The translations under genes and the position numbers were made by a program. From assembly GCF_947495925.1 (NCBI RefSeq), contig NZ_CANMAU010000004.1, forward strand, positions 372,001-436,000: a stretch of 64,000 nt of DNA, in the 5' to 3' direction. Positions 1 through 10,756 of this stretch are shown in pieces. This DNA is from an uncultured Algibacter sp. GTDB lineage: Bacteria; Bacteroidota; Bacteroidia; Flavobacteriales; Flavobacteriaceae. The notes under the pieces are model-generated. The model had not been told where the DNA came from, ran no database searches, and was given only the letters and a program-made list of their open reading frames with translations. Position 1 is the first letter of the stretch. Each line of letters starts with the position of its first letter.

Positions 1-1051
1 AAACAATACACTCCAGACCCATTAAGGCACAAACTGTAGCCGTTGCTACACCATGTTGTCCAGCTCCAGTTTCAGCAATAATTCGTTTTTTTCCTAAACG
101 TTTTGCCATTAAAATCTGTCCAATAGTGTTGTTGATTTTATGGGCACCAGTGTGATTTAAATCTTCGCGCTTCAGGTAAATTTTTGCATTATATTTTTCC
201 GAAAGGCGTTTGGCAAAATAGAGTGGAGAAGGGCGACCAACGTAATCTTTTAAAAGCTGATTGAATTCTTTTTGAAAATCAGGTTCAGCCATTACTTTTA
301 AGTAGTTCTGGCGTAACTCTTCTACATTAGGATATAACATTTCTGGAATAAATGCGCCACCAAATTCGCCATAATATCCTTTTTCATCTACATTATAATT
401 CATAGTTTTTTTATCATTAAGTTTATTAATGAATTCTCTTAAAATTGAAATATTTTTAAGTCCAGGCTCTTTTTCAAACTTGCTATTTACATCTAAGGCA
501 TAGCAATATTTATAAGCTTCACTTTCTTTAAATTTTTTGATATCGTCTACTTGGTCTAACCCAATGCCACCACTTAAAAAGAAAGGTTTTGTTGATGGGT
601 AGTTGTTTAAAAGACTCCAATCAAACCTATAACCATTTCCTCCAGGTAATTTTCCTTTGGTATCAAATAAGTAGTAATCGCATGTATTTTCATAAGGGTC
701 TAGAGCAGCGAAATTGAATTCATCCTTAATAGAGAACACTTTAATTATTTCAATGGGTTCTGGATCAGAAAATAATTCGGTTGAACGTAATATACTGCAG
801 TAATAAGGCGATTCTTCACCATGTAATTGAATAGCTTGTAAATTGAATTCATTTACTTTTTCAATTACAGTACTTATTTCTTCATTTACAAAAACACCTA
901 CTTTTTTAATGGTATTTGAAATTTCAGGAATTTTGGTGTCAAAATGTCTTGGTGTGTCTTCATAGAATATAAACCCAAGATAATCTGGCTGCAGTGAAGC
1001 AACATGCTCTATATTATCTTGGTATTTCATACCACAAATTTTCAGTTTCAT
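1..1051 (-). CDS. trpFB: TrpF-TrpB fusion: phosphoribosylanthranilate isomerase / tryptophan synthase beta (3' end outside window)
   Basis: Reading the minus strand from the ATG at 1051, one open frame runs off the window start without a stop. Residues 1-212 are a complete TrpF: it begins MKLKICGMK, and further on come LQLHGEE-like and SGGIG segments and the final ALDVNSKFE motif. TrpF isomerises phosphoribosylanthranilate in tryptophan synthesis. The usual TrpB start ([16 protein letters not shown]) follows in the same frame at 403, after only the few residues DKKT. TrpB condenses indole with serine; the PLP-lysine segment HTGAHKINN is visible near 130-155. The ATG overlaps the trpC stop as ATGA. 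I read every in-frame triplet from 1051 to 2 and found no stop. A reference annotation may split the gene at 403. A sequencing error at the junction cannot be excluded. Confidence 0.88.
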
Positions 1052-3405: not shown

Positions 3406-4812
3406 TTAAATATCTTCTGCTAATTTAATAGCTTTAGTTAATGCTCCTAATTTATTATAAACCTCTTGTAATTCGCTTTCTTGGTTGGATTTTGAAACCA
3501 ATCCAGCGCCTGCTTGCCAGTTTAATTTATAGTCTTTACTTAAAAAGGTTCTTATCATAATGGCGTGATTAAAGTTACCATCAAAATCCATGAAACCAAT
3601 GGCCCCACCATAAAATGCTCTACTGGTTTTTTCGTATTGCTCAATCAATTGCATAGCTCTGTGTTTTGGCGCACCGCTTAAAGTCCCAGCAGGAAATGTG
3701 TCAGCCACTACTTGCATGGTTGAGGTTGTATCATGTTTTTGCCCTGTTACTTTGCTTACAAGATGAATAACATGAGAGAAAAACTGAACCTCTCGATAGG
3801 TTACTACTTTTACTTGACTTCCATGGCGACTTAAATCGTTTCTGGCTAAGTCAACTAGCATAACATGTTCTGCATTTTCTTTATCGTCGCTTTTTAATTT
3901 TTCGGCTAAAACTTCGTCTTTTTGCTCATCTCCAGTTCTTTTAAACGTTCCTGCGATGGGGTGAATTTCTGCTAACCCATCATCAACAATAAGTTGTGCT
4001 TCTGGCGAGCTTCCAAATATTTTAAAATCGCCATAATCAAAATAGAATAGGTAAGGCGAAGGGTTTATGCTTCTTAAGGCTCTGTAAATATTAAAATCAT
4101 CGCCCGTAAATTCTTGAGAAAAACGTCGCGATAAAACCAATTGAAAAACATCTCCACGTTGGCAATGTTTTCTTGCTACTTCAACATGTTCTCTAAACTC
4201 ATCATCTGTTAAATTAGATTTTATGTCTCCTTTTGAATTAAAGTTATAGGATGCGAAATTTTGAACATTTATCAATTTATCAATGGCATCGATATTATTT
4301 TCTACACCTTCATAGCAATGTGCAAAAATATAAGCTTCATTTTTAAAATGATTAATAGCTATGATGTTTTGATAAACGGCATAGTATATATCAGGAATTA
4401 CTACTGAATCATCTTTTTTACTAATTTGAATATCTTCGAAATATCTTACGGCGTCATAGGCGGTATAACCGAATATTCCGTTGTTAATGAATTTGAAATT
4501 TTCTTCAGATTTAGTGTCAAATCGTTTTGTGAAATTATAAATCTCATCAACTACATTAACATCATCTGTAATGTTTAACTCTGTAGAACTTCCATCGGGA
4601 AAAGTTTGTGAAATAACTTCGTTCTCAACTTTTATGGTAGCAATTGGGTTAAAACAGATGTATGAAAAGTTTTTGTGACTTCTATGATAATCACCACTTT
4701 CTAACAAAATACTATTAGGGTATTTATCACGAATTTTATAATAAACCGTAACTGGTGTGATAGTATCTGTTAAGATTCTTTTGTGATGTGTGTAAAGACT
4801 AAATTTTTTCAT
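3406..4812 (-). CDS. trpE: Anthranilate synthase component I TrpE
   Basis: TrpE makes anthranilate from chorismate as the first committed step of tryptophan synthesis. The 468-residue protein has an N-terminal domain with LLES at 36-39, the motif that binds feedback-inhibiting tryptophan. The C-terminal chorismate-binding domain shows GSSPEAQL, PIAGTFKR, DLARNDLSRHG and FPAGTLSGAPKHRA. It is the first structural gene of the operon. Its ATG lies about 40 nt downstream of a terminator hairpin and leader peptide, so both feedback and attenuation control are likely. Confidence 0.95.
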   Translation of the reverse strand: MKKFSLYTHHKRILTDTITPVTVYYKIRDKYPNSILLESGDYHRSHKNFSYICFNPIATIKVENEVISQTFPDGSSTELNITDDVNVVDEIYNFTKRFDTKSEENFKFINNGIFGYTAYDAVRYFEDIQISKKDDSVVIPDIYYAVYQNIIAINHFKNEAYIFAHCYEGVENNIDAIDKLINVQNFASYNFNSKGDIKSNLTDDEFREHVEVARKHCQRGDVFQLVLSRRFSQEFTGDDFNIYRALRSINPSPYLFYFDYGDFKIFGSSPEAQLIVDDGLAEIHPIAGTFKRTGDEQKDEVLAEKLKSDDKENAEHVMLVDLARNDLSRHGSQVKVVTYREVQFFSHVIHLVSKVTGQKHDTTSTMQVVADTFPAGTLSGAPKHRAMQLIEQYEKTSRAFYGGAIGFMDFDGNFNHAIMIRTFLSKDYKLNWQAGAGLVSKSNQESELQEVYNKLGALTKAIKLAEDI

Positions 4813-4851
4813 TTTATATTTTTTGTTTCATTCTGAAATCAATTCAGAACA

Positions 4852-4885
4852 AAGAAAAAGGCTTGTCGTGAATGACAAGCCTTTT
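4852..4885 (-). terminator. Leader terminator (attenuator) of the trp operon
   Basis: On the minus strand AAAAGGCTTGTC pairs with GACAAGCCTTTT around a six-base loop, and the stem is followed by a T-rich run (TTTTTCTTT). It lies between the Trp-rich leader peptide and trpE, the place of a classical attenuator. I did not find a convincing antiterminator pairing partner by eye. A weaker AT stem lies at 4888-4907. Confidence 0.85.
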
Positions 4886-4930
4886 GAATATTTTAAGTTT
4901 TAAATATACTAGGATTTTACTTCACGAAGA

Positions 4931-4978
4931 TTAATTTCGAAAGCACCACCACCAAGTATTATTTAAATTTTTGTTCAT
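4931..4978 (-). CDS. trpL: trp operon leader peptide with a Trp-Trp-Trp run
   Basis: This 15-codon frame on the minus strand encodes MNKNLNNTWWWCFRN and ends in TAA. Three consecutive TGG codons are far beyond chance in so short a frame in AT-rich DNA. It starts about 15 nt after the inferred transcription start and is followed by a terminator hairpin before trpE. By analogy with known attenuators, ribosome stalling at the Trp codons when charged tRNA-Trp is scarce would prevent termination. It resembles trpL in architecture; homology is not implied. Confidence 0.85.
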   Translation of the reverse strand: MNKNLNNTWWWCFRN

Positions 4979-4998
4979 TTTATTTTTAATAACGATGT

Positions 4999-5029
4999 CA
5001 AATATAGAAATGAAAAAAGTATTAAGCAA
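4999..5029 (-). promoter_or_regulatory. Bacteroidota-type promoter of the trp operon
   Basis: The minus strand holds TATATTTG (4999-5006), a full match to the -7 consensus TAnnTTTG. A TTG at 5027-5029 lies 20 nt upstream as the -33 element. The predicted start is near 4992, about 15 nt before the leader-peptide ATG. Confidence 0.7.
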
Positions 5030-5105
5030 AACTTCTAAGTAGTTTTTATTTAAATGTTTGTTAAACTATAAGATTTTCAAAGAAGTATTAATTAGTTTTA
5101 TGCTT

Positions 5106-5651
5106 ATGAAGTTAAATGTGTTATTTATTGCCATTCTGTTAATGGTAAGTTGTGGAAAAAGTAAAAAAGAAGTTCCTCTGTCTCGGAATGAATCAGATAA
5201 AGTTATCAAAGACGTGGATTCTAGAGAAGATATTGAACTAGAAGTTTATGATTATGCAGGTTTTGAGAAGTTTTTAAATATAAAGGATAATAAAGTTCAT
5301 GTTATAAATTTTTGGGCAACTTGGTGTGCTCCTTGCGTTAAGGAATTACCTTCTTTTGAAAAGTTACATGGACAGTTTAGCGATGATAATGTTGAGGTTT
5401 TACTGGTTAGTTTAGATTTTCCACATGTATATGATAAAAAATTAAAACCTTTTATTCGCGATAAAAAAATATCATCTAAAGTAATTGCTTTGGATGACCC
5501 TGATATGAATGCTTGGATTCCAAAAATTGATAAAAAGTGGTCTGGTTCTATTCCGGCAACTATCATTTATAATCGTAACAAAAGTAAATTTTACGAACGC
5601 TCGTTCACTTATGAAGAGTTAGAAAAAGAAGTTAAACATTTTTTAAACTAA
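5106..5651 (+). CDS. Thioredoxin-like (TlpA/ResA type) lipoprotein
   Basis: The product is a 181-residue thioredoxin-fold protein with active site WCAPC at residues 73-77, inside FWATWCAPCVKELPSF. From the ATG at 5106 the N-terminus is a lipoprotein signal (MKLNVLFIAILLMVSC, lipid Cys16). I prefer this start to the in-frame ATG at 5058, which would bury the signal. It probably reduces disulfides in the periplasm, as in cytochrome maturation or protection against oxidation. The redoxin gene starts 5 nt later, so they are probably co-transcribed. The substrate is unknown. Confidence 0.85.
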   Translation: MKLNVLFIAILLMVSCGKSKKEVPLSRNESDKVIKDVDSREDIELEVYDYAGFEKFLNIKDNKVHVINFWATWCAPCVKELPSFEKLHGQFSDDNVEVLLVSLDFPHVYDKKLKPFIRDKKISSKVIALDDPDMNAWIPKIDKKWSGSIPATIIYNRNKSKFYERSFTYEELEKEVKHFLN

Positions 5652-10361: not shown

Positions 10362-10364
10362 CTG

Positions 10365-10756
10365 TGGAGTCGGAGAGAATCGAACTCTCGTCCAAACAAG
10401 TAACCAAAGGGCTTTCTACACGTTTATTCTTTTCTTGGGTTTTCGATTGCAAGCTGGTTAAAGACAACCCACTTACAACTTAGCTTCTTTAGTTTCGTAA
10501 AAGCATCAAAGCACTGCTCAAACTATATTGACATTTACGATGCCTCAAAATGGAACGCCGTCAATCAAGGCTTTCCGGAGACATAAAGCTTGTACACCTT
10601 GTGTACCTAGGCTAATTCTACTATAATTCGAATTATGCAGCTAAAGCGTAGTTATTCTCGCCGTTTAAAATTTGGTCTAGCCTTTTACGTGTTTCAATGC
10701 CATTACACGACGTGCTTACCGTTCAATTAATCTCGCTGTCAAAACCAGTCGACCCC
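10365..10756 (-). ncRNA. ssrA: Transfer-messenger RNA (tmRNA)
   Basis: The 5' end GGGGTCGACTGG and the 3' end with TTCGATTC and GACTCCA form the tRNA-Ala-like half. The 3' CCA is not encoded. The resume frame on the minus strand (10662 to 10633) encodes GENNYALAA followed by TAA, a typical degradation tag. tmRNA with SmpB frees ribosomes stalled on broken messages and tags the nascent peptide for proteolysis. The length of about 392 nt is normal. A repeat element lies immediately upstream. Confidence 0.96.

Follow-up and report, generated by a model that had tools for sequence, protein, structure and literature searches.

The trp operon of this uncultured Algibacter sp. is very probably controlled by ribosome-mediated transcription attenuation acting through a Bacteroid-trp (RF01692) leader, a reading that draws on sequence, on comparison with relatives and on a folding model. 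Sequence and comparison bear out a leader frame with a WWW run, a terminator, and a pairing that would exclude the terminator. When charged tRNA-Trp is scarce, the ribosome would stall on the Trp codons and the hairpin between segments 1 and 2 would open. The freed segment 2 (UCGUGAA) would then pair with segment 3 (UUCACGA), and segment 2b with the 5′ arm of the terminator, giving readthrough into trpE. With ample Trp, the ribosome would move on to the stop codon and cover segment 2, the terminator would form, and transcription would end near 4852-4856. With no ribosome on the leader, segment 1 is predicted to hold segment 2 and the terminator to form, so that the default state would be off. 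Since E. coli trp follows the same logic, there is no need to invoke an unusual mechanism.

It is also likely that we can describe a complete Bacteroid-trp switch that is absent from the Rfam model. Here a UCGUGA strand, which often includes the UGA stop codon itself, would lie at or a few bases past the leader stop codon and pair with the loop and the 3′ arm of the terminator, whose 5′ arm would be taken by a second helix. In the absence of a ribosome, the leader codons would hold the strand. The switch would resemble the E. coli attenuator without any sequence relationship to the proteobacterial one having been detected, and might have arisen independently. It appears to be kept in most of the taxonomic family; among leaders from other families in this class, some retain the exact pairing and others have replaced it, while all six that were scored are still predicted to switch.

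Putative promoter, leader frame, terminator and trp genes

Coordinates refer to the window, the whole stretch of 64,000 nucleotides that was analysed, and the leader and the trp genes lie on its minus strand. As the first-pass annotation had described, that strand carries in sequence a -7 element, a 15-codon frame with WWW, a strong terminator hairpin and then trpE. The putative -7 element, TATATTTG (4999-5006), is assigned from its sequence and from conservation of the motif in relatives, and its position places the expected transcription start at about 4991-4995. Located 20 nt 5′ of it is TTTG (5027-5030), which we take from its sequence, and from a spacing rule that we likewise assume, to be a putative -33 element of a Bacteroidota-type promoter. 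By itself, TAnnTTTG is not above chance in the window (93 found against 107 expected), and TGGTGGTGG by itself is common, with 79 matches in the genome, some of them overlapping. Of 171 related leaders, however, 165 have TAnnTTTG 20-90 nt 5′ of the Trp codons, where single-base shuffles would lead one to expect 11. A sigma-70 promoter scan found no more than it did in shuffles; sigma-70 is not the promoter type expected here.

The Bacteroid-trp model matches 4874-4998 over its full length (1-131), with 61.8 bits against a gathering cut-off of 49 (cmscan against Rfam) and an E-value of 3.7e-5 across the whole window. The leader peptide frame MNKNLNNTWWWCFRN (4931-4978) has 15 codons, a TAA stop at 4933-4931 and similar frames in relatives. 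Its codons 9-11 are three consecutive Trp codons (TGG; 4946-4954), the putative sensor. Segment 1, UGCUUUCGAA (4936-4945), lies 3′ of the Trp run and is, in the fold without a ribosome, the predicted partner of segment 2 (there 4928-4918). Segment 2, UCGUGAA (4921-4927), stands just 3′ of the leader stop codon and would form the 5′ strand of the antiterminator. Segment 2b, AAUCCU (4911-4916), comes from the predicted fold only, with its AA opposite UU (4878-4877) and its CCU (4913-4911) opposite AGG (4882-4880) of the terminator 5′ arm.

The intrinsic terminator hairpin (4856-4885), AAAAGGCUUGUC-AUUCAC-GACAAGCCUUUU and then UCUUU, has a 12-bp stem (4885-4874 with 4867-4856), the loop AUUCAC and a T tract that extends to 4855. 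Segment 3, UUCACGA (4866-4872), the candidate 3′ strand of the antiterminator, takes in the terminator loop and runs two bases into the 3′ arm.

A chance arrangement can be rejected on the folding z-score, the Rfam E-value and conservation in relatives. The minimum free energy of the leader RNA is -34.1 kcal/mol against -17.3 kcal/mol in shuffles (z -5.25), and none of 200 shuffles was as stable. Terminator-like sites number two in 801 bases, being one palindrome on both strands, against 0.1 expected. The Bacteroid-trp family has one match in the organism's own genome, as does the terminator sequence, and no second copy of leader or terminator was found elsewhere in that genome.

From the end of the RF01692 match, 61 nt lead to the start of trpE (anthranilate synthase component I; 3406-4812, ATG at 4812), the first gene of trpE-trpG-trpD-trpC-trpF/trpB. 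The genes 3′ of the leader are trpE, trpG, trpD and trpC by their best NCBIfam models. Cut-offs are passed by the trpC, trpD and trpG/papA subfamily models, and the best model for trpE (TIGR00564) scores 428 bits, below its cut-off of 517.7. The frame after trpC, which is cut by the window edge, has an N-terminal TrpF domain and a C-terminal TrpB-superfamily domain.

In that frame (2-1051, minus strand) trpF and trpB are fused, with PRAI and PALP domains. The fusion is present also in a genome of the same genus (L263) and is of a known kind, because NCBIfam holds a model for the bifunctional protein (NF010376). On the plus strand, a divergent gene (5058-5651) has weak, below-cut-off matches to TlpA/ResA-type thioredoxin-fold families, and its listed start (5058) and the putative trp -33 element are just 28 nt apart. 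A tmRNA gene (RF00023, 132.9 bits) lies at 10362-10756 on the minus strand.

The leader and its candidate antiterminator pairing in relatives

Searches for the RNA family were thresholded at E up to 0.001, with fast filters that may lose weak matches. On these terms 141 of the 199 genomes sampled within the taxonomic family, the organism's own among them, have Bacteroid-trp (123 above the cut-off). Of 395 genomes drawn from the phylum, 42 have it (38 above the cut-off), and 7 of these lie outside that family. Once repeats (L114 and L116, which repeat L036 and L040) and one contig-edge match (G082) had been dropped, 171 leaders were kept. Counts over 168 leaders are without L073, L088 and L115, which the terminator finder missed; in these, a hairpin and a complementary segment are visible by eye. 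A trpE match follows the leader on the same strand in 168 of the 171 relatives, at a median of 46 nt from the end of the match. Between leader and trpE, L092, L097 and L115 have a TrpB-like gene (scanned as trpB in L092, by likeness in the others). The leaders with no trpE match are followed by trpD (L170) and, by eye, by a similar frame (L171) and a TrpB-like frame (L167).

A set independent of Rfam was drawn as the best 80 of 522 loci by trpE protein similarity, and it overlaps the 171. Its records come from Algibacter, Tamlana, Hyunsoonleella, Lacinutrix, Olleya and others, the closest trpE among these best 80 of 522 being that of Algibacter mikhailovii (97%). A leader with a TGG run is present in all 80 loci: 71 are ATG-started within 450 nt, 2 have a TTG start, and 7 lie about 490-520 nt 5′ of trpE behind an inserted gene. 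The TGG run, whose lack of conservation in relatives had been set beforehand as a refuting result, is conserved. Three consecutive TGG codons from the anchor are found in 162 of the 168 leaders, and WWW is found in 71 of 71 ATG-started leaders among the best 80 of the 522 loci.

The leader frame also bears on whether a protein could be the sensor. TRAP-like or other RNA-binding proteins control trp in other bacteria, which is a precedent for a protein that senses Trp here and chooses between the two hairpins. The Trp-codon frame, however, accounts for the specificity without a protein, and an array of TRAP-type triplets was not noticed in the leader by eye; we consider such a sensor extremely unlikely.

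In the seven loci with an inserted gene (L181, L183, L190, L192, L202, L205 and L245, of the best 80 of 522), this gene of about 100 amino acids lies between the attenuator terminator and trpE and starts about 340-350 nt 5′ of trpE. That of L181 has a GIY-YIG nuclease domain and the other six look alike. Hairpin-like repeats of the GTCATTTCCGCGAAGGCGGAAA type stand before the gene, and a similar one stands after it, which suggests a mobile solitary GIY-YIG element that is now behind the trp attenuator. One hairpin of the GTCATTTCCGCGAAGGCGGAAA type is also seen past the terminator in L033 and L080.

The first-pass annotation had remarked that no antiterminator is obvious by eye. This was fair, but a pairing does exist and covaries: UCGUGAA (4927-4921) is complementary to UUCACGA (4872-4866) over seven pairs. 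As the partner is the terminator loop with the first two bases of the 3′ arm, the candidate antiterminator excludes the terminator. Its complementarity is not imposed by retrieval, since the Rfam model extends only as far as the terminator 5′ arm; the 3′ arm and the antiterminator partner (segment 3) lie outside it.

Between linker and terminator apex, 160 of 168 leaders have a helix of at least 6 pairs beginning 24-29 nt beyond the point where the Trp run starts. In the remaining eight it is short or displaced, with 5 pairs in L077, L135 and L162, 7 displaced pairs in L097, 6 weak and displaced pairs in L168, and 4 pairs in L160, L170 and L171. Outside the taxonomic family, the usual-place helix is present in L092 and L167 and missing from L097, L168, L170 and L171 (four of the six scored); in L115, also from outside the family and absent from the scored set, the antiterminator match is readable by eye. 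Versions that have changed and still pair include UUGUCGCAAU with AUUGCGACAA (L127) and UCGUAAAC with GUUUACGA (L164) and, outside the family, GUCGUAAG with CUUGCGGC (L092) and UCGUAAGG with CUUUACGG (L167).

L170 and L171, leaders from another family of the class, stand 5′ of trpD rather than trpE. An alternative pairing of GGCAGCC with GGUUGCC of the terminator 5′ arm can be made out by eye in L170, and in these two leaders the antiterminator partner may have moved while the logic stayed.

Covariation was assessed in an alignment of 46 of the 168 leaders, chosen with a pairwise-identity filter under 72%. Across these 46, 86.1% of the cells of the eight-pair antiterminator are paired, against 20.7-54.7% with the partners slid by 1 to 3 columns. 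Relative to shuffles, whose significance can be inflated as related sequences may exceed them without structure, the cells changed on both sides number 17 against 4.6 (0 of 500 shuffles as high), the pairs changed on both sides 5 against 2.8 (15 of 500 as high), and the covariation score is 0.210 against 0.147 (0 of 500 as high). More weight therefore falls on the slid controls and on the fixed position of the antiterminator. The terminator, as a yardstick in the same alignment, is 99.8% paired with 36 cells changed on both sides. Five of the eight antiterminator pairs vary little, the inner pairs being identical in most sequences, and the outer pairs 33:120 and 40:113 are weak (unpaired in 19 and 14 of the 46 sequences). 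The covariation counts are lowered because leaders of the GUGAGA type (e.g. L078) lie two bases out of register in the alignment.

The other predicted pairings are also widespread in the folds of relatives. For the terminator 5′ arm with the linker, the best base exceeds a probability of 0.5 in 166 of 168 leaders, and the mean of 8 bases exceeds it in 126 of 168 (0.45 for the window). In the fold without a ribosome, segment 2 is held by the leader codons with a probability above 0.5 in 142 of 168.

A folding model of the proposed switch

The switch was represented by folding the RNA left free downstream of the ribosome, at points where the polymerase has released only part of the terminator 3′ arm, and a downstream ribosome footprint of 13 nt was assumed. 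For the window with 6 nt of the 3′ arm out, the predicted probability of the terminator is at most 0.01 with a stalled ribosome, 0.98 with a ribosome at the stop codon and 0.99 without a ribosome. Whichever Trp codon (1, 2 or 3) occupies the A site of the stalled ribosome, the antiterminator reaches a probability of 0.95-0.97 when the RNA ends at 4866-4862, and its energy is about -12 kcal/mol. On the assumed 13-nt footprint, a ribosome at the stop codon covers segment 2 and the terminator forms, whereas a stalled ribosome leaves segment 2 uncovered. In the fold without a ribosome, UGCUUUCGAA (4945-4936) sequesters segment 2, and again the terminator forms. With the polymerase at 4852 and 10-14 nt of RNA assumed to be hidden, about 4862-4866 should just have emerged, which is the span where the antiterminator still wins.

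This geometry speaks against the different mechanism suggested in the first-pass annotation, in which the stalled ribosome itself blocks the terminator and no antiterminator is involved. With Trp 1 in the A site the assumed ribosome edge is at about 4942, more than 50 nt 5′ of the terminator at 4885 and beyond reach. Nothing specific speaks for direct masking; what a ribosome at the stop codon covers is segment 2, that is, the antiterminator and not the terminator. A complementary segment 2:3 pair, moreover, exists in a constant place and covaries, and direct masking of the terminator is therefore unneeded. We reject it on geometry, given the assumed footprint, as very unlikely. That the terminating ribosome covers the antiterminator strand is part of ordinary attenuation logic.

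For attenuation through segments 2 and 3, a leader was counted as switching when its terminator probability was below 0.2 stalled and above 0.8 at the stop codon (6 nt out, Trp 2 in the A site). By this measure 158 of 168 leaders switch, including all 6 scored from outside the taxonomic family, and 10 fail. On average the terminator has a probability of 0.04 with a stalled ribosome and 0.97 with one at the stop codon. Dinucleotide shuffling of the linker raises the stalled value to 0.81 (168 leaders, 20 shuffles each); the shuffled-linker mean is below 0.2 in only 2 of 168. In the trpE-selected set (best 80 of 522 loci), 68 of the 70 with a script-found leader and terminator switch.

The number of leaders predicted to switch varies with the footprint and with the length of 3′ arm that is out. 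With footprints of 13-16 nt, 139-160 of 168 switch at 4-6 nt out, 110-124 at 7 nt and 26-54 at 8 nt; with a 10-nt footprint, the counts are 116-135 at 4-6 nt, 57 at 7 nt and 5 at 8 nt. The window itself, with a 10-nt footprint, Trp 1 in the A site and 6 nt out, has a terminator probability of 0.68 and no switch. Its antiterminator is favoured only as long as no more than 7 nt of the terminator 3′ arm have emerged. Once 8 nt have emerged, equilibrium favours the terminator (0.87-0.97 for the window at footprints of 10-16 nt, Trp 2 in the A site), and again with Trp 2, at the 13-nt footprint, just 26 of 168 leaders fall below 0.2. The switch must therefore act kinetically, during transcription, and the antiterminator would be a kinetic state, as expected for attenuation.

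The hairpin might instead be a constitutive premature terminator that cuts trp expression by a fixed amount, the short frame being translated and not sensed. The equilibrium result fits this, as for the window the terminator is the winner in every state once at least 8 nt of the 3′ arm is out. A constitutive terminator, however, would leave the conserved WWW, the distance from the Trp run to segment 2 and the alternative pairing without an evident reason to persist, and we regard it as highly improbable.

Attenuation does not have the same resting state in every leader of the model. Without a ribosome, the terminator probability is above 0.8 in 135 of 168 leaders and below 0.2 in 14 of 168, and default-off is therefore not universal in the model.

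Relation to known trp leaders

In E. coli trpL, a leader peptide with Trp codons is combined with a 1:2 hairpin, a 2:3 antiterminator and a 3:4 terminator, and the position of the ribosome serves as sensor. The Algibacter leader appears to share this logic in each of these parts, from the Trp-codon leader peptide and the three alternative pairings to sensing by the ribosome. It differs from trpL in its three consecutive Trp codons, in a candidate antiterminator built on the terminator loop and the beginning of the 3′ arm together with a second short helix, and in a segment 2 located at, or a few bases past, the stop codon. The 9 Rfam matches of 4700-5150 at E up to 1 include no other trp leader family. 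The proteobacterial trp leader model, which we take to be Trp_leader in Rfam, is absent from the 9 matches listed at that threshold in that interval.

In its score, its Trp-codon leader frame, its position 5′ of Trp-biosynthesis genes in Bacteroidota and its intrinsic terminator, the locus qualifies as Bacteroid-trp. The two are alike in the full-length match, the place 5′ of trp, the Trp-codon leader and the terminator 5′ arm. No tested feature differs, and the antiterminator pairing adds a part that is missing from the Rfam model. As an ordinary member of a catalogued family, the locus itself is unsurprising.

Bacteroid-trp, from Bacteroidetes and with the accession RF01692, is a row in Table 1 of Weinberg et al. 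2010 (PMC2864571), and going by that table the novelty implied by the first-pass annotation is small. In the accessible text of a 2019 paper on Flavobacterium psychrophilum, an element 5′ of the trp operon is noted and likened to the E. coli leader (PMC6414381). It is the same element in the same position in a related organism, of a different genus, and no antiterminator is given in that text. Since the family is already in the 2010 and F. psychrophilum papers, trp attenuation in flavobacteria is not a new claim.

Related observations come from the available portions of other studies. A 2021 transcriptome of F. psychrophilum gives strong clues for leader-peptide attenuation 5′ of amino-acid operons, with trp unnamed in those portions (PMC9723704), and a Bacteroides transcriptome describes short frames reminiscent of leader peptides (PMC7366714). 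A 2016 leader-gene paper has reinitiation as its subject and, in the available portions, Bacteroidetes only in its distance statistics (PMC4833913). The accessible text of these three papers and of Naville and Gautheret 2010 (PMC2965389) contains no description of the antiterminator of the Bacteroid-trp family. A literature search on the family name, the accession and the antiterminator, together with leader peptides of Bacteroidetes, found the antiterminator undescribed in the text accessible. We make no claim of novelty for the pairing.

For the phylum, no experimental test of trp attenuation is reported in the accessible portions of PMC2864571, PMC6414381, PMC9723704, PMC7366714, PMC2965389 and PMC4833913. 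Ribosome-mediated trp attenuation outside Proteobacteria, as proposed in the first-pass annotation, is well supported by the sequence. The candidate antiterminator removes the reason to suppose another mechanism in Algibacter sp., and it gives a motif so far read as attenuation only by analogy a defined pair of segments, 2 and 3, that can be put to the test.
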